Shown here piece by piece: positions 11,131 to 26,834 of a stretch of 32,033 nucleotides of DNA. The notes under the pieces were generated by a model. It did no database searches and had not been told where the DNA came from. It saw only the letters and a program-made list of their open reading frames with translations. Both the position numbers and the translations under genes were made by a program. Each line of letters begins with the position of its first letter. Position 1 is the first letter of the stretch. Source of the stretch: Phycisphaerae bacterium (lineage in GTDB: Bacteria > Planctomycetota > Phycisphaerae > Sedimentisphaerales > Anaerohalosphaeraceae); the NCBI GenBank assembly GCA_018433925.1, contig JAHDQI010000341.1, positions 1 to 32,033 of the forward strand, given 5' to 3'.

Positions 11131-11547
11131 TTGGCAGCGAAAAAAAAGACAACCAAAAAAGCGGTCAAAAAGACGGTGCGAAAAGCGGTTCAAAAGACCC
11201 CGGAAACCGACCGGGACTTTGCGCTGGAGGCGATGAAGATTGCCCGCGACCGGCACTGCACCGACATCGTGGCGCTGGACCTGACGGGGATCAGCCCGGC
11301 GACGAATTATTTTGTGATTGCCACAAGCACCAGCGGCCGGCAGGGCAAGACCGTGGCCGATGAGATCTCCCAGGCGGCCGGGAAATATGACCTGGTCCGA
11401 TTCGGCCGGGCCGGGTACGAGCAGGGGCAGTGGATCCTGCTGGATTTTGTCAATGTCGTGGTGCACCTGTTCGATCCCGAACACCGCGACTATTACAACC
11501 TGGAGATGCTGTGGGGCGACGCGAAGAAATTGACCATTGATGAGTAA
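11131..11547 (+). CDS. rsfS: Ribosome silencing factor RsfS with lysine-rich N-terminal tail
   Basis: RsfS binds ribosomal protein uL14 and blocks joining of the subunits, lowering translation in starvation. Residues ~30-135 carry the family core: ALEAMKIARDRHCTDIVALD, YFVIATSTSGRQ, and the ending VVHLFDPEHRDYYNLEMLW. The start is taken as TTG 11131 because AGGAGAGGT (11115-11123) lies before it; an upstream TTG (11110) would place that site inside the gene. The first ~22 residues form a basic tail (AAKKKTTKKAVKKTVRKAVQ) that resembles the 36-residue lysine-rich protein at 5333 and is absent from the typical ~105-120-residue RsfS. It may add affinity for rRNA. It is followed after six bases by argS, so the two are probably co-transcribed. 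Confidence 0.93.
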   Translation: MAAKKKTTKKAVKKTVRKAVQKTPETDRDFALEAMKIARDRHCTDIVALDLTGISPATNYFVIATSTSGRQGKTVADEISQAAGKYDLVRFGRAGYEQGQWILLDFVNVVVHLFDPEHRDYYNLEMLWGDAKKLTIDE

Positions 11548-11553
11548 TTTTAG

Positions 11554-13575: not shown

Positions 13576-13593
13576 GCCGCGAACCTCGCCGCC

Positions 13594-14013
13594 TCAGGTA
13601 AGCTCTTTGCCCGTGGTCATGATGTTGGCGCGGCCCAGCTTGACGCCTTTCAAGCTGGTCATGCGGTCGGCCAGCGCCTGAATTTCCCGAACCTTGCCCT
13701 TGAGGATAATGATCTCCAGGCAGTTGTGGTGATCGAGGTGAACGTGGGTCGAGGTGATGATATGCAGCAGGTGATTGTGCTGGAGGTCGGTCAGCTTGGC
13801 CGAGAGATTGGCCGCGTGGTGGTCATAGACCAGGAAGATGCCGGCGACCGCATCGGTTTCGGGGTCGGCCAACTGCTCCTGATCCAGCCGGGAGCGGATC
13901 AGGTCACGAACGGCCTCCGAACGGTTTGCATAGCCCTGCTTTTCGATCAGCGCATCGAACTGCCCCAGCAGCTCCCGGTCCAGCGAGACCCCGACTCGTT
14001 CAATCTTGCTCAT
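13594..14013 (-). CDS. nikR: Nickel-responsive regulator NikR
   Basis: Ribbon-helix-helix repressor of nickel uptake, 139 residues. The N-terminal RHH domain is KIERVGVSLDRELLGQFDALI with the following helices (1-45). The C-terminal ACT-like domain has the nickel site: H79, H90, H92 and C98 (THVHLDHHNCLE), which line up with H76, H87, H89 and C95 of E. coli NikR. ATG 14013 is chosen because it overlaps the stop of the upstream cupin gene as ATGA, and homologues begin here; an in-frame extension to 14082 would run through the cupin gene. The divergent metal ABC operon is its most likely target. Its stop lies 18 bases from that of argS. Confidence 0.93.
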   Translation of the reverse strand: MSKIERVGVSLDRELLGQFDALIEKQGYANRSEAVRDLIRSRLDQEQLADPETDAVAGIFLVYDHHAANLSAKLTDLQHNHLLHIITSTHVHLDHHNCLEIIILKGKVREIQALADRMTSLKGVKLGRANIMTTGKELT

Positions 14014-14351
14014 GTCTTCGAGCCCTTCCGTATCGGCGTGACACAATAAATATACACCAGCGGCTCGTCGCCTGTATTGCAAATGTCGTGGAGCATCTGC
14101 GGCGGGACATACAGAATTTTGCCGACGCCGACGGGAATCGGGTGTTTGTCCGCCCCGGAATAGGCCGTGCCGCGTCCGGCCAGAAACACCAGTTGTTCTT
14201 CATGGTCGCCGGTGGAATGCTCGCCGCAGCTTTCGCCGGGCTTCAAATACACCCTTCCGGACCGCATCCCGCAGGTCTGGGGCTCGCCTCGCAGCAGCGG
14301 CTGATATTCCGCGGCATCCGTCAGTTCCATCGTCCTCGGTTTGGGATCCAT
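14010..14351 (-). CDS. Small single-domain cupin
   Basis: 113 residues forming one double-stranded beta-barrel. Cupin motif 1 is visible as GEHSTGDHEEQLVFLAGRG (residues ~38-60) with metal-binding H and E residues, and motif 2 as PPQMLHDICNTGDEPL, ending YIYC. It probably binds a divalent metal; no enzyme activity can be named. The start ATG 14351 has AAGGAAG upstream on the minus strand. It is translationally coupled to nikR by an ATGA overlap, so a role in metal sensing, storage or handling is a reasonable inference. A sugar or small-ligand binding role is possible. Confidence 0.82.
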   Translation of the reverse strand: MDPKPRTMELTDAAEYQPLLRGEPQTCGMRSGRVYLKPGESCGEHSTGDHEEQLVFLAGRGTAYSGADKHPIPVGVGKILYVPPQMLHDICNTGDEPLVYIYCVTPIRKGSKT

Positions 14352-14437
14352 TGAATCTTCCTTAACTCGTTTTTCATTAAAAGGTTACGGCCTTTCTGTC
14401 AAGCCGGGATTATTTTCTTATGTTTTCTGATTGACTC

Positions 14438-14502
14438 CGTAGCACAAAATCTGTATTTTTATGCATTCGTAGCACGATTATAATAAAGTTATGCGCTTAT
14501 GC
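14438..14502. promoter_or_regulatory. Divergent control region: -10 box and repeated motifs between cupin-nikR and the metal ABC operon
   Basis: CGTAGCAC occurs twice in the same orientation (14438-14445 and 14468-14475), 30 bases apart. TATAAT followed by AAAG lies at 14479-14484, directly after the second copy. TTATGC occurs three times (14459-14464, 14489-14494, 14497-14502). The arrangement around a -10 box suits a repressor site, and NikR is the obvious candidate, but the half-sites are direct rather than inverted, unlike classic NikR operators. Confidence 0.45.
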
Positions 14503-14536
14503 AAGAAAAAATAACACTTTTTTTGAGGAGATGGTC

Positions 14537-15562
14537 ATGAAGGCGGGAAATTGGGCAATGATTATGGTTCTGGCAACCGGCTTGGCCGCATGGGCTGACG
14601 ATCCAATCCCTTCGGAGGCAAAGATCACGCACCGGCAACTGCAGGCGACCGATCAATTTGGCGAAGGGACTTATGATGCCACAGACAAGGTGATTGTCGA
14701 GGGCATCGTCCTGAATGCCCCGGAGATGATCCTGAACCCGGCGCCGGGGGCCGGGTTTATGGGCGGCCAGTGGCAGATGTATTTTCAGGGCGAGGGGGAG
14801 GACCATGCCGGCACGGCCGTGTGGTTCGGGCAATATTACCATAAAGTGACCACGGGCGATCCGAACGACAGTTATACGGATGAGGAACTGCTCGCTGAGC
14901 TGTGTCGAATCAATGCCGATCCGAACACGGGATACGTATTTCACCCCGGCGACCGGATTCGCGTCACGGGCTGGTATAAGTTTTACGGCGGCAAGACCAA
15001 CATCAACGAAAAGCACCAAAAGGCCCCTTTCTTTGACTTTGACATCGAGCTGGTTAAGCCGGCCGTGGGGCTGCCTCAAGCCGAACCGATCACCCTGGCG
15101 GATTTGAAATACCCTGATAACACGTTTCTCTTTGATCCCAATCGGGACGCCGGTCCGGAATTTTACCAGGGGCGACTGGTGCGGATTGAAAATATCCAGA
15201 TTGAAAACCCGGACAACTGGGGCCCCGGAAAGACCGTCACCGTCGCCGATCCGAACGGCCGTGATTTCCCGGTGCGGCTGGGGCTGGGGGCCGGATTTAC
15301 GCGGTATGCCCCCCCTGCCGGCCCGATTGATGCCGTCGGCATCCTGGATCAGGAAGCCCCGGACTGCGATTTCTGCGATTACGGATATCGTCTATGGGTC
15401 CCCAATTATGACGGCAACGGGCTGGTGCTGACGGATCGGGGACATCGCCGAGGCAACCTGCCGGGCGACGTCAATGGGGATTACTCGGCAGATCTGTTGG
15501 ATCTGGCGGAATTGTCTGAGAACTGGCTGCGCTTTGTGCCGGGATTATTCGGTTGCCCGTAA
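14537..15562 (+). CDS. Secreted protein with C-terminal dockerin-like repeat, first gene of metal ABC operon
   Basis: 341 residues. A signal peptide (MKAGNWAMIMVLATGLAAWA) is followed by D-D-P. The body has beta-rich OB-fold-like stretches (VIVEGIVLNAPEMIL; GDRIRVTGWYKFYGG; VGILD) reminiscent of secreted OB domains that follow 'establishes a new identity' patterns, but no family is recognised with certainty. The C-terminus (GDVNGDYSADLLDLAELSENWL) is a single dockerin-type calcium-binding repeat, common as a sorting or attachment tag in Phycisphaerae. Cysteines are clustered (CDFCDYG). ATG 14537 is chosen over ATG 14531 because GAGGAG (14525-14530) directly abuts the latter. It is separated by 24 bases from a prepilin-like gene and continues into the transporter genes, so an extracytoplasmic role in metal handling is inferred. 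Confidence 0.75.
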   Translation: MKAGNWAMIMVLATGLAAWADDPIPSEAKITHRQLQATDQFGEGTYDATDKVIVEGIVLNAPEMILNPAPGAGFMGGQWQMYFQGEGEDHAGTAVWFGQYYHKVTTGDPNDSYTDEELLAELCRINADPNTGYVFHPGDRIRVTGWYKFYGGKTNINEKHQKAPFFDFDIELVKPAVGLPQAEPITLADLKYPDNTFLFDPNRDAGPEFYQGRLVRIENIQIENPDNWGPGKTVTVADPNGRDFPVRLGLGAGFTRYAPPAGPIDAVGILDQEAPDCDFCDYGYRLWVPNYDGNGLVLTDRGHRRGNLPGDVNGDYSADLLDLAELSENWLRFVPGLFGCP

Positions 15563-15586
15563 CCGGAAAAGGAGTCTTCTGTCGTC

Positions 15587-16258
15587 GTGAAAAAAGCGTT
15601 TACCTTACTGGAACTGCTGGTGGTCATTGCCCTGATCGGGCTTTTGACGGGCCTTGCGCTGTCGTCTCTGCGTCAGGCGCGGCTGCGCGCGAAATTTGTG
15701 GTGGTCAATTCGGACCTGCGGCAGATCGGGCTGGGGCTGGAATGCTATGTAATGGACCATAAAAAGTACCCGCCCACGCGGGAGGACTGCAATACCGGCT
15801 CGCTGGCCGATCATCTGTACCAACTGCCCGATGAGCTGGCCGAGGGCGAGTACCTGCCCGCGGCCTCTGTGGGGCAGGCCATGTCGGTAATGATGGAGGA
15901 TAAGTTTCATCCGGGGCATACCTACAAATACCGGAGTGTGGGCGAATGCATTCGGGACCGCAATAAAATTGACCGGTGGATTAAAGCCAAACTCTGGGTG
16001 CCGAGCGGCTTTCCGGCCGGCAGCAGTCTTGAAAAGTCACAGGGGCAATGGTACACAGAGCCGAAGGAGTCGCCGGTGACCTGGGCGGTCTTCAGCATCG
16101 GTCCGAATTTTGAGGAAGAATGGGTCTGGGATACGCTGGGGGGTCTTTACCCGATTCCGAAGGAAACCTGGTACAATACGCAGCAGAAAAAGGGATTTTT
16201 GGTTCGAGTGCGGATGAAAAACGGCCATGAACACGGCTCGTTTGAGGGCCCTCGATGA
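15587..16258 (+). CDS. Type II prepilin-like (pseudopilin) protein in metal ABC operon
   Basis: 223 residues. The N-terminus KKAFTLLELLVVIALIGLL is a class III prepilin leader and membrane helix: cleavage would fall between A4 and F5, with E at mature position 5. The remainder is a soluble domain (MSVMMEDKFHPGHTYKYRSVGE, WVPSGFPAGSS) exposed outside the inner membrane; no H-X9-DG motif was seen. The start is GTG 15587 with AAAAGGAG upstream. The last bases ATGA are shared with the start of the next gene (lipoprotein), so translation is coupled and the protein belongs functionally to the transporter operon. Such proteins are numerous in planctomycetes with mostly unknown roles. Assembly into a pseudopilus is possible but not shown. 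Confidence 0.85.
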   Translation: MKKAFTLLELLVVIALIGLLTGLALSSLRQARLRAKFVVVNSDLRQIGLGLECYVMDHKKYPPTREDCNTGSLADHLYQLPDELAEGEYLPAASVGQAMSVMMEDKFHPGHTYKYRSVGECIRDRNKIDRWIKAKLWVPSGFPAGSSLEKSQGQWYTEPKESPVTWAVFSIGPNFEEEWVWDTLGGLYPIPKETWYNTQQKKGFLVRVRMKNGHEHGSFEGPR

Positions 16259-17076
16259 AACGGCGGGCGTATAAACGGATCTGGATTTGGGCTGCCGCGG
16301 CGCTGCTTTTTGTTTTCGGCTGCGGACCCAAAGAGGAATCGGCCGGGCCGCCTGAAATTTCCGTTACGAACACCTACCTCGAATCGGCCGTGCTGGATCT
16401 GACCGGAAGACAGATGAGAGTCTTTTGCGTGGCTCCGCCCGGGATGTGTCCGGGGCATTTTGATATGTCGCCGGAGCAGATTCGCCGGCTGCTGAACAGC
16501 CGCATCCTGTTTCGATTTGATTTTCAGGGCGGGCTGGATGAGAAGCTAAGCCGTATGCCGGCGCAGATTGTTCCCATTGAAGGGCGTGCGGGGCTTTGTA
16601 TTCCGCAAACCTACCTGGATACCTGCCGGGATATGCTCTCGCATCTGTCCGCGGCGTTTCCTGAGAGCCGGGCCTCTTTTGCCGAAGCGTTTAAAACGCT
16701 CGAGGCCTCCTTGCGGACCCTTTCAGCAGAGATGCACGCCCGGATGGAGCAAGCGGGCCTGAAGGGGCAGGCCGTCCTGGTCTCCAGGCATCAATCCGAA
16801 TTTGCCCGCTGGCTGGGGCTGGAGGTTGCGGCCGAATTTCAGGGCGCCGACACCATGACCCCCTCGCAGATTGCCCGCTGTCTTGAAGCCGGCCGACAAA
16901 AGCAGGCGGGCCTGGTCATTGCCAACCTGCAGGAAGGCACGGAACTGCCCCGGCGCCTGGCCGACCAGTTAAATGCCCGGCTGGTGATATTCAGCAATTT
17001 TCCCGATCCGAAAACCGAAACGGAAAGCCCGTTTGTCCGGATGCTGCGTGAGAACGCGGCGGGCCTGATTCCATAA
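16255..17076 (+). CDS. TroA/ZnuA-like metal-binding lipoprotein of ABC transporter
   Basis: 273 residues. A signal peptide ends in a lipobox-like LLFVFGC with lipidated C23. The layout is that of a cluster-9-type metal-binding protein: an N-terminal lobe, a long helix (about 120-165) and a C-terminal lobe. The usual first metal-binding histidine context is replaced by C65-P-G-H68-F-D70 (MCPGHFDMSPEQIRRLL). A second conserved histidine is H179 (SRHQSEFARWLGL). There is no histidine-rich loop of the ZnuA kind, and the protein is shorter than usual (about 300). It overlaps both neighbours (ATGA upstream, one base downstream), so the stoichiometry with ATPase and permease is set by coupling. Metal identity is unknown; nickel is inferred from divergent nikR, zinc or manganese being alternatives. 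Confidence 0.82.
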   Translation: MKRRAYKRIWIWAAAALLFVFGCGPKEESAGPPEISVTNTYLESAVLDLTGRQMRVFCVAPPGMCPGHFDMSPEQIRRLLNSRILFRFDFQGGLDEKLSRMPAQIVPIEGRAGLCIPQTYLDTCRDMLSHLSAAFPESRASFAEAFKTLEASLRTLSAEMHARMEQAGLKGQAVLVSRHQSEFARWLGLEVAAEFQGADTMTPSQIARCLEAGRQKQAGLVIANLQEGTELPRRLADQLNARLVIFSNFPDPKTETESPFVRMLRENAAGLIP

Positions 17077-17852
17077 TGAGCGAGCCGATGATAACCCCTT
17101 GCACAAACCTTACGGACATCCTCATTCGGCGCCACCGGCATGTCCTGCTGGAAATTGAGCGGCTGACTTTACCGGCCGGGAGTTTTACCGGGCTGATCGG
17201 CCCCAACGGCGCAGGCAAGACGACCTTTCTCAAATTGTGCTGCGGGCTGATCCAACCCAACCGGGGAACGGTGTACTTTGAAAATCAACGGATTTCAAGC
17301 CGTCCCTTTTGGCGAATCGCTCACTATCGAAGATCGATCGGGTATATCCCCCAGCAGGCCGAATACAACGCCCATCTGCCGTTTACGCTGCGGGAAGTGG
17401 TGGCGATGGGCCGCCGCGGCCGCAAGGGGCTGACGGCTTCGCTCGACCGGAGCGATTATGAAATCACCGATTCCTGGCTTGCGGACATGGGGCTGTATGA
17501 CCGCCGCAACCAGACGTTTCGATCGCTGTCCGGCGGCCAGCAGCAGAAGGCGCTGATTGCCCGGGCCATGGTCGGCCAGCCCCGCTTTCTTCTGCTGGAC
17601 GAGCCCGGCTCCAACCTGGACCCAACCTGGAAAAAACAGCTTCGGGAAATTCTCGACCGGCTTTATGCCGCCTACCCGCTTACAATCCTGCTGATTTCTC
17701 ATGAACTGGATCTGATTCCGGACTCCTGCCGCCGCCTGATTCTTCTGGACCAGGGACGCATCCTGACAGAAGGTTCCCGCCGGCAGGTCCTCCGGTCCGA
17801 CCTTGCCCGCCGACTGTACGGAGACCGGCCGGATACCGGGAGGGAGGCATAG
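17076..17852 (+). CDS. Metal ABC transporter ATP-binding protein
   Basis: 258 residues, ZnuC/MntB family ATPase. Walker A is GPNGAGKT (42-49), the Q-loop is IPQQAEYNA, the signature LSGGQQQKA (151-159), Walker B FLLLDEP (171-177), and the switch histidine H209 (LISHELDL). All motifs are intact. The start ATG shares one base with the stop of the lipoprotein gene (TAATG). It pairs with the permease two bases downstream to form the cytoplasmic and membrane parts of the importer. Confidence 0.95.
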   Translation: MSEPMITPCTNLTDILIRRHRHVLLEIERLTLPAGSFTGLIGPNGAGKTTFLKLCCGLIQPNRGTVYFENQRISSRPFWRIAHYRRSIGYIPQQAEYNAHLPFTLREVVAMGRRGRKGLTASLDRSDYEITDSWLADMGLYDRRNQTFRSLSGGQQQKALIARAMVGQPRFLLLDEPGSNLDPTWKKQLREILDRLYAAYPLTILLISHELDLIPDSCRRLILLDQGRILTEGSRRQVLRSDLARRLYGDRPDTGREA

Positions 17853-17854
17853 CC

Positions 17855-18646
17855 GTGGACGCGTATTTTCTGCCGATTATCATTACTGGGGCCTTTGCCG
17901 GGATCGGAATCGGCCTGCTGGGGGTGTTTATCGTCGGCATGCGGATGCCGTTTATCGGCAGTTGTATCTCTCACGCGGCCATGGTCGGAGCGGTTTATGC
18001 CTCGCTGTGGAACCTGAGCCCCACTGCCGGGGCGCTGCTGCTGTCGATGAGCGCATCGGCCGGCGCGGCGTTCCTGCCGCCCAGCCGCAGAAACCTGGAC
18101 GCCAACACCGGCCAGGCCGTACTACTGGCCTTTATGATGGGGCTTGTCTTTCTGGCCGTCGGGCTGGAACAGAACAGCCGAAGCGAAATGCTTTCTCTGC
18201 TGTGGGGCAATGTCCTCTTTGCCGACTGGGGCACCGCGGGCATAACCGGGGGGCTGACAATCGTGTTGGCCGCCTTCACGGCCCTGTTCAACCAGGAATT
18301 AAAGGCCATCCTGTTCAGCCGTTCGCTGGCCGAGGCGACCGGACCCTATGCCAAAGCGGTGTATTTTTGCTTCCTGTGCCTGTGCGGGCTGATCCTGGCG
18401 GTGACCCTCAAGGCGGTCGGCGGGCTGCTGATTTTCAGTTTGCTGGTCTGCCCGGCGGCGGCCGCCTATCAGATCTGCCGGGGATTTCGGGCCGTGATCC
18501 TGACTTCCATGCTGTTTGGCCTGCTGTCCACCACGGTCGGCTTTGCGCTGTCTTATTCCCTGAATTTGCCTACCGGCGCCTGCACGGTCCTTGTCAGCGC
18601 CGGAATCTTTCTGCTGACCTCACTGTTTCAGCGACTGGCTCAATAA
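17855..18646 (+). CDS. Metal ABC transporter permease (ZnuB/ABC-3 family)
   Basis: 263 residues with about eight hydrophobic helices. Family features include GVFIVGMRMPFIGSCISHAA near the N-terminus, corresponding to the conserved G-x-F-x-V-x-R-x-x-x-x-x-x-D/S-x-x-H block, and the segment LKAVGGLLIFSLLVCPAAAA, which matches the VGxLLVxALLxxPAAxA signature of ABC-3 permeases. The start is GTG 17855, two bases after the ATPase stop, so it is coupled. It is the last gene of the operon. No intrinsic terminator is visible in the 168 bases to the dtxR-type gene. Confidence 0.93.
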   Translation: MDAYFLPIIITGAFAGIGIGLLGVFIVGMRMPFIGSCISHAAMVGAVYASLWNLSPTAGALLLSMSASAGAAFLPPSRRNLDANTGQAVLLAFMMGLVFLAVGLEQNSRSEMLSLLWGNVLFADWGTAGITGGLTIVLAAFTALFNQELKAILFSRSLAEATGPYAKAVYFCFLCLCGLILAVTLKAVGGLLIFSLLVCPAAAAYQICRGFRAVILTSMLFGLLSTTVGFALSYSLNLPTGACTVLVSAGIFLLTSLFQRLAQ

Positions 18647-18814: not shown

Positions 18815-19453
18815 ATGGTACAATCCGTACAACTCAGTGCCAGTCTGGAAGATTATTTGGAAGCGATCTTCTGCCTCTTTTCGGAAAAAGGCGGCATCCG
18901 AGCCAAAGACATCGCCCGGCGGCTGGGCGTCAAGGCCGGTTCCGTGACCGGGGCGCTGCAGGCGCTTTCGGAAAAGAAGCTGATCCGCTACGCCCCCTAC
19001 GAAGTCATCACCCTGACCTCGGAGGGACTGCAAAAGGCCCGGCAGATTGTACGACGGCATGAGGTTTTAAAGGAGTTCTTTGTGGAGGTGCTGGGGGTCG
19101 ATGAGGCGATTGCCGACGAAGGCGCCTGCACACTCGAACACGGCATCCCCAAGGTGATTTTTGAACGATTAACGGAATTTGTGGAAACGTATAAAAAGGA
19201 TCAAGTCATGACGGATACCAAAAAAGAGGCGTCCCTGGCGGATCTCAAGCCCGGGCAAAAAGGAACCGTCCTGCGGCTCAATCCGCGGGGAAGCATTACC
19301 CGGCGGCTGGCGGATATGGGCATCGGCCGCGGGGCGCTGATTGAAGTCGAGCGGGTGGCCCCGCTGGGAGACCCTATTGATATCAAAGTTCGGGGTTATC
19401 ACCTGTCCCTGCGAAAAAATGAGGCCGCCGAGATCAAGCTGTCTGTCCTGTAA
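18815..19453 (+). CDS. DtxR-family iron-dependent regulator with C-terminal FeoA domain
   Basis: 212 residues. Residues 1-~65 are the winged helix (YLEAIFCLFSEKGGIRAKDIARRLGVKAGSVTGALQAL), and ~70-130 the metal-binding dimerisation domain (RRHEVLKEFFVEVLGVDEAIADEGACTLEHGIP), with the H, E, C and H ligands expected of DtxR/MntR. Residues ~138-212 are a full FeoA/SH3-like domain (SLADLKPGQKGTV, RRLADMGIGRGALIEV, APLGDPI, RGYHLSLRKNEA). No separate feoA gene lies beside feoB, so this fusion may both sense Fe2+ and serve FeoB. The start is ATG 18815 after AGGAAA. It lies 54 bases before feoB, from which a palindromic box separates it. Function as iron repressor is inferred from family and context; manganese sensing is less likely. 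Confidence 0.93.
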   Translation: MVQSVQLSASLEDYLEAIFCLFSEKGGIRAKDIARRLGVKAGSVTGALQALSEKKLIRYAPYEVITLTSEGLQKARQIVRRHEVLKEFFVEVLGVDEAIADEGACTLEHGIPKVIFERLTEFVETYKKDQVMTDTKKEASLADLKPGQKGTVLRLNPRGSITRRLADMGIGRGALIEVERVAPLGDPIDIKVRGYHLSLRKNEAAEIKLSVL

Positions 19454-19472
19454 ATTTTTTTTGGGAGAAATG

Positions 19473-19486
19473 TTAGGTGCACCTAA
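19473..19486. promoter_or_regulatory. Palindromic DtxR/IdeR-like iron box before feoB
   Basis: TTAGGTGCACCTAA is a perfect 14-base palindrome, 21 bases before the feoB start and followed by TTTTATAAGG. The outer halves TTAGG and CCTAA match the ends of the known DtxR/IdeR iron-box consensus (TTAGG...CCTAA). A related sequence occurs at 22004. Confidence 0.8.
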
Positions 19487-19507
19487 TTTTATAAGGCAAG
19501 CAATATT

Positions 19508-21574
19508 ATGAAACAAACACGCATCACCGTCGCCCTTGCGGGCAACCCCAACAGCGGCAAGACCACCCTGTTTAACGCCCTGACCGGCGCCCGCCAGCAC
19601 ATCGGGAATTATCCCGGCGTAACGGTCGAAAAAAAGGAGGGACTGCGTTTTTACAACGGCTTCGAAATCAAGTTCGTGGACCTGCCGGGAACGTACAGTT
19701 TAACCGCTTATTCCATCGAAGAGATCATCGCCCGCGACGTTCTCGTTGCCGAGCCGCCCGACCTGGTGGTGCACGTGGTGGACAGTTCCAATCTTGAACG
19801 AAATCTGTACCTGACTACCCAGTTGATGGAGATGAACACAACGCTGGTGCTGGCGTTTAACATGATCGACGTGGCCCGCCGGCAGGGCCATGATATGGAT
19901 CTGCCCAAGCTGTCCGAGCTGCTGGGCTGCCCGATTGTGCCGACGGTGGCCAGCCGTAAAAAAGGCATCGACCGGCTGCTGGACACAATTATTCAAACCG
20001 CCCGGCACAAAGCGGACCGCCCCGCCAGGCCGCCTCTGCGATACGGCAAGGAAATCGAGCAGCAGCTTGAATCCATCATGCGGCTCATTCCCGACGGCCA
20101 CCCGCTGGCCGAGCCATACGGCCGCCGGTGGCTGGCCCTCAAACTGCTCGAACAGGACCGGGAGATTCTCGACCGCGGCTGGCCGGAGCCGATGATTCAG
20201 GCCGTGGCCCAGAGCGTCGAGCGGATCAAAAAACACGTCGGCGACGAGCCGGAAATCGTGATCGCGGACCGGCGCTACGGAGTGATCTCCGGGGCCTGCC
20301 AGGAAGCGTTTCGGCCGTCGGTTGAATCCCGCCATACGGCCAGTGACGCGGCCGATGCGGTGCTGCTGCATCGGCTGCTCGGACTGCCGATTTTCGCGCT
20401 GCTGATGTATGCGGTCTTTGCATTGACCTTTCGGCTGGGCGATCCCCTGATGGGCTGGATCGAGACGGCGTTTGAGGGGCTGGCGACAGCGACGGCAGGA
20501 CTGTGGCCGCCCGATGCCGAAAGCCCGGTCAAGTCCCTGCTCGTGGACGGGATCCTCGGCGGCGTCGGGGGCGTAGTCGTCTTCCTGCCGAACATTCTGC
20601 TGCTGTTTTTGGCCATCGCGATTATCGAGGACAGCGGCTACATGGCCCGGGCGGCCTTTTTGATGGACCGAGTCATGCACAAAATCGGGCTGCACGGAAA
20701 AAGTTTCATTCCCATGCTGATCGGCTTCGGATGTTCGATCCCGGCGATGATGGGCACCCGGATTCTTGAAGACAGGCGAAACCGGCTGACGACGCTGATG
20801 ATTATCCCGCTGATGAGCTGCGGGGCGCGGCTGCCGATCTATGCGCTGCTGATCCCGGCGTTCTTTGCGCCCTGCTGGCACGGCCTGATGATGTGGCTGA
20901 TTTACATGATCGGCATCGGGCTGGCGATTGTCTGCGCCTGGCTGCTGCGCAAAACCCTGCTGCGGGGACAGACCGTTCCCTTCGTGATGGAACTGCCCCC
21001 CTATCGAGTGCCGACGCTGCGCGGGGTGCTGCTGCACATGTGGCAGCGGGGCGGGTTGTATCTGAAAAAGGCCGGAACGGTCATTTTGGCGATCTCCATC
21101 GTTCTGTGGGCCATGACCAGCTATCCAAAGGTCGGCGACGAGGCGCTGGCAGGGCTCAGCGAGGAGCAGGCCGGGCAGGTTGCATTGCGGCATTCCATCG
21201 CCGGCCGAGTCGGCAGCGCCCTCGGCCCGGTCCTCCGGCCGATGGGATTCGATGAACGCATCGGAACGGCCCTGATCGGGGCCCTGGCGGCCAAGGAAGT
21301 CTTTGTCGCCCAGTTGGGTATTGTCTATTCCATGGGACAGACCGATGAGGAATCGGAAACCCTGCGCGAAAAACTGCGGCAGGATTACACGCCCCTGCAG
21401 GGCTTCTGCATCATGCTCTTTGCGCTGATCAGCGCCCCGTGCATTGCCACCGTGGCCGTCTGCCGGCGGGAGAGCGGCACCTGGACGTGGGCACTGTTCC
21501 AGTTTGCCGGCCTGACGGCCCTGGCCTACGGCATCACTGCGGTTGTCTATCAGGTTGGGCGTCTGCTGCTCTGA
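19508..21574 (+). CDS. feoB: Ferrous iron transport protein FeoB
   Basis: GTP-driven Fe2+ importer of the inner membrane, 688 residues. The N-terminal G domain shows G1 GNPNSGKT (13-20), G3 DLPG (58-61) and G4 NMID (118-121), followed by a helical GDI region (about 170-270). The membrane part starts near residue 295 and has two Gate domains, seen in IEDSGYMARAAFLMDRVMHK and FGCSIPAMMGTRILEDRRNR, with the metal-path cysteine in G-C-S-I-P. A second such signature is ISAPCIATVAVCRRE near the C-terminus. The start ATG follows the iron box and a weak AAGG site. The next gene begins six bases after the stop, so they are co-transcribed. It is expected to be repressed when iron is plentiful. Confidence 0.97.
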   Translation: MKQTRITVALAGNPNSGKTTLFNALTGARQHIGNYPGVTVEKKEGLRFYNGFEIKFVDLPGTYSLTAYSIEEIIARDVLVAEPPDLVVHVVDSSNLERNLYLTTQLMEMNTTLVLAFNMIDVARRQGHDMDLPKLSELLGCPIVPTVASRKKGIDRLLDTIIQTARHKADRPARPPLRYGKEIEQQLESIMRLIPDGHPLAEPYGRRWLALKLLEQDREILDRGWPEPMIQAVAQSVERIKKHVGDEPEIVIADRRYGVISGACQEAFRPSVESRHTASDAADAVLLHRLLGLPIFALLMYAVFALTFRLGDPLMGWIETAFEGLATATAGLWPPDAESPVKSLLVDGILGGVGGVVVFLPNILLLFLAIAIIEDSGYMARAAFLMDRVMHKIGLHGKSFIPMLIGFGCSIPAMMGTRILEDRRNRLTTLMIIPLMSCGARLPIYALLIPAFFAPCWHGLMMWLIYMIGIGLAIVCAWLLRKTLLRGQTVPFVMELPPYRVPTLRGVLLHMWQRGGLYLKKAGTVILAISIVLWAMTSYPKVGDEALAGLSEEQAGQVALRHSIAGRVGSALGPVLRPMGFDERIGTALIGALAAKEVFVAQLGIVYSMGQTDEESETLREKLRQDYTPLQGFCIMLFALISAPCIATVAVCRRESGTWTWALFQFAGLTALAYGITAVVYQVGRLLL

Positions 21575-21580
21575 CAAACA

Positions 21581-22006
21581 ATGAGAACCGCGATTAATTT
21601 CACTGTCGATTGTATTCTTCTGGGACTGCTGGCCGGGGTGGTGTGGACCGGCCTGGTGATGCGGTATGTCCTGCCGCCGGGTTTTCGGGGCTGTTACGGC
21701 TGGACCCTGTGGGGCCTGGGAAGGCATGATTACGGAACGATTCATTACGGCCTGTCGGTTTTGATGGTCCTGTTCAGCGGGATTCATCTGGGACTGCATT
21801 GGAGATGGTTTTGCGCAAAACTCAACGCACGGGTACGAACCCGGGGCCAATCGCTGATCGCCCTACTGCTCGTTCTATTTCTGTTTGGTCTTTGCATAGG
21901 AAGCGTGTTTTTTCTGCACAAACAGGTCTGCAAGCCAAATGCCCGCCCTGCTGCCGCAGCCGCGGAGCCGGGGGAAAAGAGATCCTTTTTTTTAATCCCA
22001 AAATAA
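21581..22006 (+). CDS. DUF4405-like small membrane protein with histidine pairs
   Basis: 141 residues with about four hydrophobic helices. Histidines H49, H55, H69 and H73 (RHDYGTIHYG; SGIHLGLHWRW) sit at helix ends in the arrangement of DUF4405/cytochrome b-like proteins and could bind haem, though this is not proven. The C-terminal ~25 residues are a soluble tail with alanine and proline. It begins six bases after feoB without its own ribosome-binding site, so it is translationally coupled to FeoB. A redox role in keeping iron in the ferrous state is a plausible inference. Confidence 0.7.
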   Translation: MRTAINFTVDCILLGLLAGVVWTGLVMRYVLPPGFRGCYGWTLWGLGRHDYGTIHYGLSVLMVLFSGIHLGLHWRWFCAKLNARVRTRGQSLIALLLVLFLFGLCIGSVFFLHKQVCKPNARPAAAAAEPGEKRSFFLIPK

Positions 22007-22017
22007 GGTGCGGCTAA
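22004..22017. promoter_or_regulatory. Second DtxR-like box before the PEP-CTERM gene
   Basis: TAAGGTGCGGCTAA agrees with the feoB box at 11 of 14 positions and is likewise followed within two bases by TTTATAAGG. It begins on the TAA stop codon of the DUF4405-like gene and lies 117 bases before the next start. Shared downstream bases argue for one duplicated regulatory element rather than chance. Confidence 0.65.
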
Positions 22018-22067
22018 CTTTATAAGGAACTACAAAGTCACCGGAAAAACACAACAGGAAGAAAGAA

Positions 22068-22088
22068 GACACCAAATGGTTTGGTGTC
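22068..22088 (+). promoter_or_regulatory. Perfect nine-base-pair hairpin in the leader of the PEP-CTERM gene
   Basis: GACACCAAA (22068-22076) pairs with TTTGGTGTC (22080-22088) around loop TGG. No T run follows on the + strand, so it is not a standard terminator. It could be an mRNA-stability hairpin or a dyad operator. Confidence 0.55.
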
Positions 22089-22133
22089 ATAAAAAAGTAC
22101 AGTCATCGGTACACAATGAAAGGAAAGGGAAAG

Positions 22134-22793
22134 ATGAAAAACCGAACAAGCAACAACCGGGGGATAAGCTTACTGTGGACGCTTGCAGTCTGTGCCCTCT
22201 CGTCTGCCGGCCAGGCGGGGCCGGCAAACAGCCGGAACTGGGCCGACAGCGTGGTCAGCTACACCTCACAGATTCAAAACTACGAGGGCACGCTGATGGG
22301 TCCATCCACAGAATATTGGCTGCTGGGCCCCTCCGATACGGACCAAAACGGGAACCTGTATGCTTTCGACTGGGGCATTGACCAAATGACAAATGCCGGC
22401 TGGAAGGCAGCGGCCCCGGCCCAGGAGATCGTTGTCCAATTCGATACGGCGCTGACGGACGGCGCCGGAGACGACCTTGTCATTCGACTGTTTTGCGGTC
22501 CCAAAGCCGAAGCTTCGGTCTATGTAAGCGAGGACGGATCCAACTGGATTCAGCTTGATTCGATTGTCGGCGCTGCGCAGCAGGACCTTGGAACGCCCGG
22601 ACAACTGGCGGATGTATCGTACGATTTTGAAGGACTTGGAATCCGCGGGGTCCATTACGTAAAGGTCTATCGGGAAACCACCGGCAACGGAACCGGGATG
22701 TTTTTTGACTCGTTCGGTACCGCGGTGCCCGAACCGGCGACACTCCTGCTGCTGGGAGCAGGAGCCGCCGCGTGCCTGAGAAAACGGAAATAG
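22134..22793 (+). CDS. Secreted PEP-CTERM protein of the iron locus
   Basis: 219 residues. An N-terminal signal peptide (SLLWTLAVCALSSAGQA) leads to a beta-rich body, and the C-terminus is a canonical PEP-CTERM tag: VPEP, hydrophobic helix LLLLGAGAAAC, and R-K-R-K at the end. Exosortase would cut and anchor it at the surface. The body has the signature GAGDDLVIRLFCGP and GMFFDSFGTAV, shared with the dockerin-tagged protein at 23614, so the two are paralogues. ATG 22134 is preferred over 22116 because AAAGGAAAGGGA lies directly before it. An intrinsic terminator follows. The sequence resembles discoidin-like or F5/8-type carbohydrate-binding jelly rolls only in general character. Molecular function is unknown, and iron control is inferred from the box upstream. 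Confidence 0.85.
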   Translation: MKNRTSNNRGISLLWTLAVCALSSAGQAGPANSRNWADSVVSYTSQIQNYEGTLMGPSTEYWLLGPSDTDQNGNLYAFDWGIDQMTNAGWKAAAPAQEIVVQFDTALTDGAGDDLVIRLFCGPKAEASVYVSEDGSNWIQLDSIVGAAQQDLGTPGQLADVSYDFEGLGIRGVHYVKVYRETTGNGTGMFFDSFGTAVPEPATLLLLGAGAAACLRKRK

Positions 22794-22809
22794 AACGACG
22801 GCTCCTTCA

Positions 22810-22843
22810 GGATGCGGGCCCTCGCTCGGCCCGTATCCTTTTT
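22810..22843 (+). terminator. Intrinsic terminator between PEP-CTERM and prepilin-like genes
   Basis: GGATGCGGGCC (22810-22820) pairs with GGCCCGTATCC (22828-22838), eleven pairs including one G-U, loop of seven, then TTTTT. It ends only 13 bases before the next start codon, so downstream genes depend on read-through or another promoter. Confidence 0.85.
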
Positions 22844-22856
22844 CGGGGATTTGTTG

Positions 22857-23594
22857 ATGAAGCACAAAATCGAAAAAGCGTTTACCGTAATCGAACTGCT
22901 GACGGTCATTGGCATAATCGCCCTGCTGATGGGGATTGTGCTGCCTTCCCTGTCTGCCGCCAGGGAGCAGACCCGATCGGTTCTCTGCCGGGCCAATCTC
23001 AAACAGCTCGGCCTGGCCCTGCGGATGTATGGAGACGATTGTAACGGGAATATGCCGTCAGCGGAACCGTATCCCGGCAGTTACGGCAAAAGCGCTCAGC
23101 ATTGGTTCAACAACGCGGCCCTGCTGAACCCGTTGGGACTGGAAGTCAGGATCGATGAAAACGGAGAGCCGGTCGGGCCGGGCAAACAGCGTTCCGTGCT
23201 GACCTGCCCGACTCACAAAAAACCGGACTGGTCCCGGGACAGTCTGCCGGAGGATCCGGCCAGGGAGCGGGCGTTTGCCCTGAGCTATATGGCCAACGGA
23301 ACGCTGGGCGTTTCGGGCAAATGCAATCAGCCCACGGAATACCGGCAGGAGCGCGAATTCAAGAATCCCGCCAGGGCCATGATGTTCTGTGAAGGCAACG
23401 GGACGGAGTCGGTCCCGGGAACCGTGCTTTTCGACGGATGTCCCAAACCCAATCTGTTGTTTCGACATCGCGGCCGGGCCCATGCCCTTTTTCTCGACCA
23501 GCATGTTGAATTGCGGACGGAAGAGGAGGTGCCTTTCTGCAGTCGATTTGATGAAAAACGTTTCGGCGAATTCTGGTACGCCAAAAAACCTTAA
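22857..23594 (+). CDS. Prepilin-like protein with variant H-X9-DG motif
   Basis: 245 residues. The N-terminus KIEKAFTVIELLTVIGIIALL is a prepilin leader: cut A8/F9 and E at mature position 5. Near the C-terminus HRGRAHALFLDQHVE has the layout of the planctomycete H-X9-DG domain, but the D-G pair is D-Q. The middle (CRANLKQLGLALRMYGDDCNG, LTCPTHKKPDW, ALSYMANG) is typical of the DUF1559-type family. ATG 22857 starts the leader; an earlier ATG (22812) would add 15 residues and fall inside the terminator. The ribosome-binding site is poor because the terminator occupies the leader. It is followed after 19 bases by a dockerin-tagged protein. Its role in the iron locus is unknown. Confidence 0.88.
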   Translation: MKHKIEKAFTVIELLTVIGIIALLMGIVLPSLSAAREQTRSVLCRANLKQLGLALRMYGDDCNGNMPSAEPYPGSYGKSAQHWFNNAALLNPLGLEVRIDENGEPVGPGKQRSVLTCPTHKKPDWSRDSLPEDPARERAFALSYMANGTLGVSGKCNQPTEYRQEREFKNPARAMMFCEGNGTESVPGTVLFDGCPKPNLLFRHRGRAHALFLDQHVELRTEEEVPFCSRFDEKRFGEFWYAKKP

Positions 23595-23613
23595 CCCTTA
23601 ACAAGGAGACGGA

Positions 23614-24573
23614 ATGAAACAGGGAATCCTTACGGGATGGATATTGGCACTATGCGGAACGGCGTCGGCCCGCTACATAGAAGGCATTAACTGGGCCGAC
23701 CGGGTCGTGTATCATACAGACAAAATTCAAAGTTTTGTGGACGGGTATTGCGGAGGCCCCGGGGCGCTGATGATGCAGTCCGTAACCCCGGCAACCACCT
23801 GGCTGGTGCTGGGCCCCGGCGATGCCGACGGCAACGGCGACCTGTACGCCTGGGACTTTGACCGGGGGGACCGGGATTATGTGGCCGGGTGGCGATCAGC
23901 TTCCGCTGCACACGCCGACCAGGAAATCATCGTGCAGTTTGACCACGGAATCCGGGATGCGGCCGGCGATGATCTGGTCATTCGCCTGTATGGCGGGCCG
24001 CTGGCGGCCGCCTCTGTCTGGGCCAGTACGGACGGCCGGAGTTTTACGCAAATCGGCGTCATCGAGGGACAACTCAACGGGCTTCCCGGCACACCGGGCC
24101 GGTTCTATGACGCATCTTTTGATTTGGACGGACGATTTGCCGAGCCCGTCCATTTTATCCGGGTTTGCCGAGAGGTGACCCAGCCGCAGTCCGGCATGTT
24201 TTTTGACTCGTTCCGCACCGCCTATGTGGATCTGCCTGAGATCGGCGAACCGGTTGCCCGGTATGGCTGGTCTCTGAAAGCAGATGTCAATCAGGACGGG
24301 TATGTCAATCTGAACGATCTGGCAGGGATCTCCGCTCAATGGAAGCGGTGCAACGATCCGAATCATCCGCTTGCAGATCTGTGGCTTTTTGAGGATCCCA
24401 ATTCCATCCCGTCAAGCTGCCACGGCGTCCATCAGGCGGGAATGGGCATGGACGGCGACCTGAACCGGGACTGCCGGGTGGACCTGGCGGATTTGCAGGT
24501 CTTTACGGAATTCTACCTGCTTTGCAATGACCCGGACGACCCGGCATGCCTTCCAAACTGGCCGGAGATATAA
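23614..24573 (+). CDS. Secreted dockerin-like protein, paralogue of the PEP-CTERM protein
   Basis: 319 residues. After a signal peptide (ILTGWILALCGTASA) comes a ~190-residue domain homologous to the PEP-CTERM protein at 22134: shared features are NWAD-V near the start, LGP-D-NG-LYA-D, AAGDDLVIRLYGGP and SGMFFDSFRTA. Instead of a PEP-CTERM tag it ends in two dockerin-like calcium repeats, DVNQDGYVNLNDLAGISAQW and DLNRDCRVDLADLQVF. The second lacks the usual D/N at one calcium position (C and R instead of D and G). A strong AAGGAG precedes the ATG. It is probably exported and attached by a different route from its paralogue. It may bind a surface ligand or metal-bearing substrate; no enzyme motif is visible. 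Confidence 0.85.
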   Translation: MKQGILTGWILALCGTASARYIEGINWADRVVYHTDKIQSFVDGYCGGPGALMMQSVTPATTWLVLGPGDADGNGDLYAWDFDRGDRDYVAGWRSASAAHADQEIIVQFDHGIRDAAGDDLVIRLYGGPLAAASVWASTDGRSFTQIGVIEGQLNGLPGTPGRFYDASFDLDGRFAEPVHFIRVCREVTQPQSGMFFDSFRTAYVDLPEIGEPVARYGWSLKADVNQDGYVNLNDLAGISAQWKRCNDPNHPLADLWLFEDPNSIPSSCHGVHQAGMGMDGDLNRDCRVDLADLQVFTEFYLLCNDPDDPACLPNWPEI

Positions 24574-24609
24574 ACGAACAGTCATCCCATTAAAAAACAG
24601 GAAAACAGG

Positions 24610-25290
24610 ATGAAACGAAAACACATGACAAAAAAAATGAGTGTGACAGTCGCCCTTGTCCTGGGTATGATTTTTTCCGGGTGCAAACGAACGGATGAAA
24701 CGCAGGCGGCCATCGCCGCACTCAGAGCACAGCTCAGCCCGCTGCAGGTGCGTAACTCGGACGGCTCCGTTAAGACGATTTCCTTTGAACAGGCGCTGCA
24801 CTGGCATGAAACCCGGGAATCGGACCATGCTGAAGCAGAAGACGATCATCATGCCGCCGAATCACACCCGATCTGCCTGGGAGTGCTGGCCGGGTACCAG
24901 GCCATCCGCTATGCCTGCGATCAGCTTTTCCCGGAAGAGAGTGCGGCCGCAGACGACTTTGAGATTGAAGTCAGCGGCCCGATGAACGGGGTACGGGACA
25001 TCCTGGCCCTTTATACCGGCAAAGAAACGGATTTTAAGGGCGCCCCGGGACCGATAAGTCGAAACAGCTTCACCTTTACGGCATGGAAGCTGTCAACCAA
25101 TCAGTCTGTCGTGTTTCGGCTCCGCGAGGGCCTTATCCCCAACCTGTTCTATGAACTGAAAAATGAAGGCGCCGCCTGCGGCCATCCCCAACTGGGCAAA
25201 ATGAAACAGCAAACAATTCTGAATCTCCTCTCTGTGCCGGCCGGGGACTGTTTTGAACGGCTGGAAAATGCCGCTTTTTCAAATCGCTAA
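24610..25290 (+). CDS. FmdE-like lipoprotein with histidine-rich segment
   Basis: 226 residues. A signal peptide with lipobox MIFSGC makes C24 or its neighbour the lipidated cysteine. Residues ~65-85 form a histidine/acid-rich stretch (HWHETRESDHAEAEDDHHAAES) that likely binds metal. The following HPICLGVLAGYQA, MNGVRDILALYTG and FTFTAWKLSTNQSVVFRLREG resemble the N-terminal domain of FmdE-type proteins, with the H-x-C metal motif in altered form (HPIC against HGHxCPG). Two later cysteines (AACGHP, PAGDC) may join in metal binding. Exact activity is unknown; a periplasmic metal-binding or metal-transfer role fits the neighbours feoB and the Cys-rich protein. ATG 24610 is used; ATG 24625 is possible. 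Confidence 0.65.
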   Translation: MKRKHMTKKMSVTVALVLGMIFSGCKRTDETQAAIAALRAQLSPLQVRNSDGSVKTISFEQALHWHETRESDHAEAEDDHHAAESHPICLGVLAGYQAIRYACDQLFPEESAAADDFEIEVSGPMNGVRDILALYTGKETDFKGAPGPISRNSFTFTAWKLSTNQSVVFRLREGLIPNLFYELKNEGAACGHPQLGKMKQQTILNLLSVPAGDCFERLENAAFSNR

Positions 25291-25310
25291 ATAAGAACGG
25301 AGAAGACAGA

Positions 25311-25481
25311 ATGGAAACAATTTCGGTCATTGCAGTGGTGGGCGCGGCGGCCTGGTGGATGATTCGCCAATGGACCGGCCCGAAGAAAAAAGACGGCGCC
25401 TGCGGATGCGGCGGAAGCTGTGCCGATTGCCCGCTCAAAAAAAACGCCTCGGGTTCTGACGGAGTCGATTGGGACGTGTAA
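25311..25481 (+). CDS. FeoB-associated Cys-rich small membrane protein
   Basis: 56 residues, translated by eye: one membrane helix (ISVIAVVGAAAWWMIRQW), then a basic stretch and a cysteine cluster CGCGGSCADC (31-40). This is the pattern of the FeoB-associated Cys-rich family (PF12669-like), usually found immediately beside feoB; here it sits 3.7 kb downstream. The cluster could handle Fe2+ or an iron-sulphur centre near FeoB. GGAG (25299-25302) precedes the ATG by eight bases. Its presence ties the intervening surface-protein genes to iron metabolism. The family function has not been proven. Confidence 0.85.
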   Translation: METISVIAVVGAAAWWMIRQWTGPKKKDGACGCGGSCADCPLKKNASGSDGVDWDV

Positions 25482-25483
25482 GG

Positions 25484-25512
25484 TTGACTGATCTGTAAAC
25501 AATCTTTATGCT
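25484..25512 (+). promoter_or_regulatory. Candidate sigma-70 promoter of the OprB-type porin
   Basis: TTGACT (25484-25489), 17-base spacer, TATGCT (25507-25512). It lies directly after the stop of the Cys-rich gene and 45 bases before the porin start. Confidence 0.6.
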
Positions 25513-25556
25513 GGCACCAATCTGAAATACACAACACACCACGGAAAGGAAATAGT

Positions 25557-26834
25557 ATGAGAAAACCAGTCACTTTCATCAGCGTCCTGATTCTGCTTAC
25601 TGCCGCCGCGCTCTGCCAGGCCGATGCGGCCGAGGAGTTTTGGCAGCGGGACTCGCTGACCGGCGGATTCTGGGGGCTCAACGGCATCCTCGAACCATCC
25701 GGGGTCGATTTTGCATTCAGTATGACCAATATTTACCAGCTTAACACCCGCGGCGGAACCGCCACCCACCGCCGGCAGGGCCGCTGGTCAGGCAGCTTCG
25801 ATCTCGAAATGAACATGGACCTCGAACGACTGGCGGGCATTGAAAACGGCTCGGTGTATATGCTGGCCGAAGGCACCTGGTCGCGCAACGACATTGACGC
25901 AACCTCCGTCGAATCGGCCTTCGGCGTCAACGGCGATTTTGCCCCGCGCGAGGCCTTTACCATCATCGAACTGTGGTACCAGCAGGGCTTCTGGGACAAC
26001 ACGCTCCACCTGCGCATCGGAAAACTGGATATGACCGGCGGTTTCGATCATCGCGGTTGCCCGGTCTCCTTCGACTGCAACCGCTACGCCAACGACGAAA
26101 ACACCCAGTTCCTCAACGCGGCACTGGTCAACAATCCCACAATTCCCTTCCCCGATTACGGAATCGGGGCGATTGTGTTCTGGAGCCCCGTCGCGGACTG
26201 GTACGTCTCCGTCGGGGCCGCCGACACCCAGGCCGACAAGCGGGAAACCGGACTGAATACCGCTTTGGGCGGTGAGGATTATTTTGTGATGATGGCCGAG
26301 ACCGGCATCACTCCCCGGCTCGATTCGATCAACGGACCGCTCCAGGGGGCCTATCGAGTGGGAATGTGGTATGATCCGCAGCCGCGGCCGGTTGAACCGG
26401 AAAATTTCAACAATCCCGACCGGCAATACCGGGACCAGACGGGCCTGTATCTCAGTTTTGACCAGATGCTCAGCAAGGAAAACCGCGACCCGGAAGACAT
26501 CCAGGGACTGGGCGGCTTTTTCCGATACGGCTATGCCCACGGCCGAAGCAGCGAGATCTCCAATTTCGTCAGTTTCGGGCTTCAATACGAAGGGCTTCTG
26601 GACGGCCGCGACAGCGATGTCCTCGCCCTCGGCTATGCCCACGGAACCTTCAGCGGCCGGGCCGACAGCACCTATACCGAAGATTACGAAAGCGTCATCG
26701 AGATGTATTATTCGGCCCAGGTGGCCGGCTGGATGAATATTACACCGTCGATCCAGTATGTCTCCAATTCCGGCGCCGCCGCGGGCGTCAGCGATGCGCT
26801 GGTCTTCGGCGTCCGAACCCTGCTGACATTCTAA
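25557..26834 (+). CDS. Outer-membrane carbohydrate-selective porin, OprB family
   Basis: 425 residues. Signal peptide ends ...ALCQADA. The opening LTGGFWGLNGILEPSGVDFAF is the OprB signature (L-x-G-x-W-G-L/x-R-x-x-L-x-x-x-G-V), and alternating aromatic strands continue to the C-terminal phenylalanine (LVFGVRTLLTF), as in beta-barrels. OprB porins pass sugars; some members sit in metal loci. AAAGGAAA precedes the ATG. Own promoter upstream suggests that it can be expressed apart from the iron genes, so its link to iron is uncertain. It shows that the organism has an outer membrane. Confidence 0.9.
   Translation: MRKPVTFISVLILLTAAALCQADAAEEFWQRDSLTGGFWGLNGILEPSGVDFAFSMTNIYQLNTRGGTATHRRQGRWSGSFDLEMNMDLERLAGIENGSVYMLAEGTWSRNDIDATSVESAFGVNGDFAPREAFTIIELWYQQGFWDNTLHLRIGKLDMTGGFDHRGCPVSFDCNRYANDENTQFLNAALVNNPTIPFPDYGIGAIVFWSPVADWYVSVGAADTQADKRETGLNTALGGEDYFVMMAETGITPRLDSINGPLQGAYRVGMWYDPQPRPVEPENFNNPDRQYRDQTGLYLSFDQMLSKENRDPEDIQGLGGFFRYGYAHGRSSEISNFVSFGLQYEGLLDGRDSDVLALGYAHGTFSGRADSTYTEDYESVIEMYYSAQVAGWMNITPSIQYVSNSGAAAGVSDALVFGVRTLLTF

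Follow-up and report, generated by a model that had tools for sequence, protein, structure and literature searches.

In Bacteroides, iron that has been freed from haem in the periplasm enters the cell via FeoAB (PMC6460266), and the dechelatase for haem iron is HmuS (PMC12583661). Elsewhere, HemP/HmuP proteins are small positive regulators that are needed for haem use, the haem receptor gene being their typical target (PMC9131926). The FmdE family (PF02663; structures 2glz, 2gvi, and 3d00) holds metal through His-His-Cys-Cys ligands and is encoded mostly beside metal-ion transporters (PMC2954224), and Synechocystis has an SLH/OprB porin, Slr1908, with an important part in its iron uptake (PMC8707739). 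Here, we describe a 32,033-nucleotide stretch of an uncultured Phycisphaerae bacterium (contig JAHDQI010000341.1, assembly GCA_018433925.1; genome G000), hereafter the window, in which a cassette of secreted genes, encoding a PEP-CTERM protein, a prepilin, a dockerin-tagged paralogue of the PEP-CTERM protein, and a His-rich FmdE-like lipoprotein, is embedded in a block of ferrous-iron (Feo) genes. As judged from sequence, this cassette is almost certainly real, conserved, and iron-linked, and it probably captures iron, perhaps from haem, because the set is found again next to iron and haem genes in many of the relatives.

Comparison with the described systems reveals both likenesses and departures. 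The planctomycete loci resemble the Bacteroidota hmu/FeoAB system in combining a periplasm-side chelatase-type protein with FeoB under iron regulation, the proposed shared logic being the anaerobic extraction of iron from haem (PMC6460266; PMC12583661); nevertheless, they have neither a TonB receptor nor a CobN-type HmuS, and hold instead an exported CbiX-type protein or FmdE-like lipoprotein, PEP-CTERM- or dockerin-tailed proteins, and a prepilin. With the proteobacterial hemP-hmuRSTUV and chuPRSTUV operons, they share the placement of hemP just 5' of a surface-component gene, to which one locus (L126) adds HemS and a haem-type ATP-binding cassette (ABC) transporter, together with secreted proteins and a prepilin. 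Whereas a TonB-dependent receptor follows hemP in the proteobacterial operons, a PEP-CTERM discoidin-like protein and then a prepilin follow it in the planctomycete loci.

The iron block and its recurrence in Planctomycetota

The iron block spans 18815-26834 as a single co-directional run on the + strand, with intergenic gaps of 6-127 nucleotides. It opens with a gene fusion in which a DtxR/MntR-type metal repressor carries FeoA as its C-terminal domain (18815-19453; Pfam Fe_dep_repress, Fe_dep_repr_C, and FeoA), followed by the ferrous iron permease gene feoB (19508-21574; TIGR00437, 609 bits), a small DUF4405 membrane protein with a His-x13-His pair (21581-22006; PF14358, 3e-13), the PEP-CTERM exported protein (22116-22793, with a likelier start at 22134), the prepilin (22857-23594), the dockerin-tagged paralogue (23614-24573), the lipoprotein (24610-25290), the FeoB-associated Cys-rich membrane protein (25311-25481; PF12669, 6e-8), and, as the last gene, an OprB-family porin (25557-26834; PF04966, 2e-51). 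FeoB, a FeoA domain, and the regulator of a Feo system are all contained in this one block. A preliminary description of the DNA had set the secreted genes between feoB and the Cys-rich gene, and the sequence bears it out as to presence, order, and common strand; feoB and the PEP-CTERM gene are both there, but the DUF4405 gene between them had been omitted, and the block reaches further than described, to the DtxR-FeoA fusion upstream and the porin downstream. The DtxR-FeoA fusion also lies 5' of feoB in six other loci (L065, L067, L080, L081, L083, and L152). In a search for a DtxR operator, only dyads differing in sequence were found upstream of dtxR, and a tRNA was the sole match above its cut-off in an Rfam scan of the block.

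Relatives were sought in samples of 148 genomes of the order, 347 of the class, and 392 of the phylum. A two-row profile of the paralogues recovered full-length relatives in 10 of the 148 order genomes, and a search with the lipoprotein alone recovered five of those ten, each time adjoining paralogues; the full paralogue profile matched 80 of the 148, mostly through the tail only. The PEP-CTERM, prepilin, paralogue, and lipoprotein genes stand in the window order in G014 (two copies), G018, and G022; the order is kept without the PEP-CTERM gene in G009, and shorter versions without the lipoprotein also occur. The assemblies of G009 and G014 each consist of a single contig. The block comes after dtxR and feoB in G018, as in the window, and feoAB lie 3' of the lipoprotein gene in G022. 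A 29-row profile of the core domain of the surface proteins (profile A4; E<=1e-12) matched 16 of the 347 class genomes, with one to four copies each, and 3 of the 392 phylum genomes, a distribution that is rare and patchy. The new class loci again carried dtxR-feoA, feoB, hemP, PEP-CTERM, and prepilin genes; G561 and G584, from another family of the class, have the series dtxR-feoB-PEP-CTERM-prepilin-lipoprotein. The cassette is therefore found in further families and orders of Planctomycetota, in some cases with genes lost or rearranged.

Iron linkage was counted in 29 non-redundant core-domain loci, with markers sought within 10 kb. Ten of these loci have feoB, 11 dtxR, 13 hemP, and 10 DUF4405, such that any of the first three is present in 14/29 and any of the four in 18/29; a cassette-type prepilin is likewise present in 18/29. 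For feoB, a binomial test gives P between 1e-15 and 7e-9 at an assumed per-locus probability of 0.006-0.03, a calculation that treats the loci as independent even though they come from related genomes, which are not. DUF4405 genes related to that of the window adjoin the cassette in L052, L053, L062, L063, L064, L066, L067, L071, and L079. The expectation that other genomes would keep these genes near feoB is thus borne out in several families and orders, and the first ground on which the preliminary description would have been given up, that no other genome keeps it, falls away.

A scan of named genomes yielded 18 loci, chiefly from Sedimentisphaerales, Phycisphaerae, Pirellulales, and other Planctomycetota metagenome-assembled genomes (MAGs), along with one Chromatiaceae-labelled MAG and an isolate, Rhodovulum steppense DSM 21153. 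The core-domain gene of the Chromatiaceae-labelled MAG (L069, 3079-3582) comes from a sample set, PL23, that is shared with a cassette-bearing planctomycete MAG, and may be a binning error. The Rhodovulum relative (L072, 9923-10351) has a C terminus resembling an exosortase signal and adjoins transporter and cobalamin-type genes, recognised by eye.

The cassette is further marked by a leader hairpin. A 21-nucleotide dyad with an invariant AAATGGTTT is found in the window (GACACCAAATGGTTTGGTGTC; 22068-22088, + strand; nine-pair stem, loop TGG) and in L045, L047, and L048, in each case just 5' of the leading gene for an exported protein; in L045 and L124, such a dyad also stands just 5' of the ChaN/HutW-like modules, which brings the elements in the fetched loci to six. 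Only these six fell below E 0.3 when a covariance model was run over 0.94 Mb, the next match having E 0.38. The stem pairs differ on both sides at 4/9 positions, a count that leans towards a stem because the sites were chosen by pairing. With the covariance model, the hairpin was not found in more distant cassettes (L080, L081, L079, and others), and it is absent from L046 and L049, the two copies without iron neighbours. The loop ATG opens a frame of 4-10 codons in five of the six elements; those of L045, L047, L048, and L124 begin with MVS (MVSDQDEEKN, MVSEQK, MVSKEG, MVSERR, and MVSE) and may encode a leader peptide, and the loop-ATG frame of the window (22075-22140) is far longer and does not begin with MVS.

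Surface proteins, prepilin, and lipoprotein

The PEP-CTERM and dockerin-tagged proteins are paralogues (44% identity over 211 columns, E 9e-48), with cores at 22227-22742 and 23674-24240, respectively. The former possesses the PEP motif, transmembrane stretch, and basic tail of an exosortase substrate (PF07589, 5e-7; TIGR02595 over its cut-off), and two exosortase genes (PF09721) are present in G000. The dockerin label given earlier to the Cys-containing C terminus of the latter holds in part: PF00404 matches it partially, but weakly (16.4 bits against a cut-off of 22.9) and over one of the two expected repeats. Rather than the two calcium-binding repeats over the Pfam cut-off that characterise a type I dockerin, one half-repeat was matched, and the repeats of this tail are split by a CHG..Q..G insert. 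The core domain is confidently predicted to form a beta-sandwich (predicted local distance difference test score, pLDDT, 92.5) that matches discoidin and carbohydrate-binding module (CBM) domains with VIA-align Z of about 9-11, up to 11.4, over 120-141 residues. Domains from PAPP-A and from 7biz, a B12-binding lipoprotein of Bacteroides, also match it, with Z 9-11. The predicted fold is thus that of discoidin/F5-8 type C domains and CBM6/29/32, although identity to these is about 10%, the core belongs to no Pfam family, and it has conserved motifs of its own, NWAD and GMFFDSF.

The prepilin is related to DUF1559 and has a type IV pilin-like N terminus, in which an N-terminal methylation motif is followed by a hydrophobic helix (KAFTVIELLTVIGII). 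It combines an N_methyl segment with the start of DUF1559, scoring 18.0 bits against PF07963 (cut-off 21.2), 3.8e-8 against TIGR01710, and over the cut-off for DUF1559; its orthologues in cassette loci are 41-64% identical.

The lipoprotein has a lipobox (SGC), a His-rich loop, and a divergent FmdE-like domain. Relatives, a fusion, and the match of its modelled fold speak for the FmdE-like label, but the window protein itself scores 12.9 bits against PF02663, below the cut-off of 22.9, a value that is reached by its L080 relative (22.9) and exceeded by the L078 fusion (30.9). The structural model (three sequences; pLDDT 73.8) has 2glz as its best PDB match (E 0.09, probability 0.96); a PDB sequence search with the lipoprotein gave no match. 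FmdE genes often lie near metal-ion transporters (PMC2954224). The window protein differs from the family, however, in being of an exported, lipid-anchored type with a long His-rich loop, and in its metal site: the FmdE ligand set (His-x-His-x-Cys and a Cys about 36-41 residues on) is not complete in the lipoprotein alignment, HxHxC being loosened, with Cys67 invariant, the His positions variable, and His44 and Cys168 also conserved. In another planctomycete class, an exported CbiX-type chelatase is fused to an FmdE-like domain immediately 3' of feoB (L078, 1337-2791; G284). Within the L152/L153 set, an FmdE-like domain, feoB, hemP, a chelatase, and a flavodoxin share one locus in G639, and an FmdE-like domain, a chelatase, and a flavodoxin share one contig in G655.

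Several cassettes (L050, 89-436 and 4648-4995; L051, 5460-5807; L045, 4698-4994) have next to them genes for small membrane proteins that contain a CPxC motif and a His-rich stretch and are possible metal-binding partners.

Haem, inorganic iron, or adhesion

That the cassette acts in iron acquisition is likely on the strength of its sequence context, and a fuller mechanism, in which a surface and periplasmic module delivers iron, plausibly from haem, to FeoB, is given a probability of roughly 60%. Under this mechanism, the two discoidin/CBM-like paralogues would leave the cell and stay attached to its surface, one anchored by its PEP-CTERM tail through exosortase and the other by its dockerin-like calcium-binding tail, with the dedicated prepilin helping to export, display, or couple them. 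The surface proteins would capture an iron source, for which haem or another iron tetrapyrrole is favoured; in the periplasm, the lipoprotein would deal with the ligand that bears the iron, acting together with an exported CbiX-type chelatase in genomes that have one, and FeoB would then receive Fe(II). Electrons may come from DUF4405, passage across the outer membrane may be given by the OprB porin, and DtxR-FeoA would regulate the whole. Haem itself, taken as the specific ligand, falls somewhat short of even odds.

The case for haem comes from related loci. The hemP gene (Pfam hemP, 1.6e-16) lies directly 5' of the PEP-CTERM gene in ten loci, and it is present in 5/10 cassette genomes versus 17/138 others of the order (Fisher P 0.007, uncorrected for kinship). 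Other modules built on the same plan stand in hemP loci that lack the cassette, L126 (see above) among them, with some members assigned by eye from sequence alone. Of these loci, L114, L115, L117, and L120 hold, in whole or part, an exported CbiX-type chelatase, a flavodoxin, a prepilin, and a large secreted protein. L124, as well as L045 directly after its cassette (11370-17715), contains a hemP-linked series of PEP-CTERM protein, secreted protein, prepilin, ChaN, and a HutW-like radical S-adenosylmethionine protein. ChaN (PF04187, 6e-55), DUF2023, flavodoxin, CbiX, and HemS are confirmed by Pfam/NCBIfam, and the HutW-like protein scores 293 bits against TIGR04107, below the cut-off of 400; its C-terminal part in the L045/L124 module matches the S component of an energy-coupling factor transporter (Trep_Strep). 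A DUF2023-like gene adjoins flavodoxin in hemP/dtxR loci L114, L115, L121, L124, and L045 (6928-7455; Pfam-confirmed in L045 only), and these loci suggest a link of DUF2023 to iron or haem use.

Several observations weigh against the proposed mechanism. There is no hemP in the window, nor in G000 at the family threshold, and since the genome of the host has none, haem is uncertain for this organism; the window likewise holds no chelatase, ChaN, or HutW gene. Eleven of the 29 core-domain loci have none of the four iron markers, several of these being on short contigs (4.5-12 kb). By reading of the alignment, the lipoprotein has no equivalent of Cys55, the fourth of the FmdE metal ligands, and the predicted discoidin/CBM-like fold is equally compatible with binding of sugar or of protein. 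Moreover, pairs of a prepilin and an exported protein often adjoin unrelated genes in the phylum, as seen in several flanks, and because such pairs are frequent there, the prepilin may simply be a general aid to export.

The strongest alternative, though an unlikely one, is that inorganic iron (Fe2+/Fe3+) rather than haem is taken up, the surface proteins gathering ferric iron or iron-bearing particles, DUF4405 and flavodoxin reducing it, and FeoB importing Fe(II). The window would suit such a role, as it encodes FeoB, a FeoA domain, DUF4405, the FeoB-associated protein, and an OprB porin and has no haem gene; DUF4405, possibly a b-type haem redox membrane protein by its sequence, weakly matches Ferric_reduct (E 0.07), and a porin, Slr1908, matters for iron uptake in Synechocystis (PMC8707739). 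On the other hand, the hemP, ChaN, HutW-like, and chelatase genes of related loci favour haem, as does the hairpin common to the cassette and the ChaN/HutW-like module, and none of the 25 loci examined has a gene in which CxxCH occurs at least twice. Multihaem cytochromes are accordingly ruled out there as a route of Fe(III) reduction at the surface, and DUF4405 and flavodoxins are the sole redox candidates left. Of the two roles raised earlier, iron capture or reduction at the surface, capture is hence the better reading, given its links with hemP, with ChaN/HutW-like genes and exported chelatases, and with the common hairpin, and reduction is the weaker.

The block contains no TonB-dependent receptor gene; of the ten cassette genomes tested for PF00593 barrels, three have none (G022, G561, and G584), and in the remaining seven every match is either at least 170 kb away from the cassette or on a different contig. 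OprB-type porins also adjoin feoB or hemP in cassette-free relatives, as confirmed by Pfam in L111, and OprB-like porins of L113, L118, L119, L122, L123, and L128 were identified from the starts of their sequences. The window porin resembles the cyanobacterial SLH/OprB porins in standing beside ferrous-iron genes but has no SLH domain by Pfam, and a transport role for it in planctomycetes is putative.

Less probable still is that the surface proteins are carbohydrate- or particle-binding adhesins that hold cells on polysaccharide or mineral and are co-regulated with iron genes without handling iron. Discoidin/CBM-type domains are common as surface adhesins; the core domain matches both kinds, and OprB is named as a carbohydrate porin. 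An adhesin, however, would leave unexplained the lipoprotein with a putative metal-site fold, which shares a block with the surface genes at six loci of the order, from five genomes, and likewise in L080 and L081, the position of hemP immediately 5' of the PEP-CTERM gene in ten loci, and the protein beside feoB in which the lipoprotein domain is joined to a chelatase. Lastly, a chance adjacency of common PEP-CTERM and prepilin genes to feoB is strongly disfavoured: prepilins and dockerin-like tails are indeed many in the order (hence the 80/148 genomes matched, mostly by the tail), yet the core domain is rare (16/347), has iron genes beside it across families and orders with order and direction kept, and shares its hairpin among several loci.

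A second module and the wider significance

The arrangement proposed here for iron, namely surface proteins with a prepilin feeding a metal-handling protein, has a counterpart within the window. Upstream of the iron block (14531-18646), an exported dockerin-tagged protein and a prepilin precede a ZnuA-type substrate-binding protein and an ABC-3 transporter, with a NikR-type regulator divergent from the module (whole region 13594-18646). The exported protein of this second module occurs in 74/148 order genomes, nearly always in single copy, and the majority of the fetched loci retain the prepilin and ABC genes with it. In L142 and L146, the position after the exported protein and prepilin that other genomes give to the transporter is filled by an FmdE-family protein. 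Because the second module repeats it, the combination of exported protein, prepilin, and metal protein may be a general design.

A bolder and more doubtful proposal is that planctomycetes possess a TonB-receptor-free haem/iron route, in which exosortase- or dockerin-anchored discoidin-like proteins and a prepilin would take the TonB receptor's position after hemP, the ligand would go to the FmdE-like lipoprotein and an exported chelatase, and Fe(II) would be released for FeoB, the same design serving another metal in the NikR-type and ZnuA-type ABC module. Transport, specificity for haem, and replacement of the receptor are what we infer from gene context in this proposal. In a literature search, no paper was found on surface uptake of haem or iron in planctomycetes, nor one tying PEP-CTERM or prepilin genes to metal uptake.

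In summary, the cassette is a concrete, testable candidate that is conserved, rare, and regulator-linked. It offers a possible role in nutrient uptake for prepilins and for uncharacterised exported proteins with PEP-CTERM or dockerin-like tails, and its FmdE-like lipoprotein, or the CbiX-type chelatase of related loci, is a candidate exported partner for the anaerobic release of iron from haem beyond Bacteroidota.

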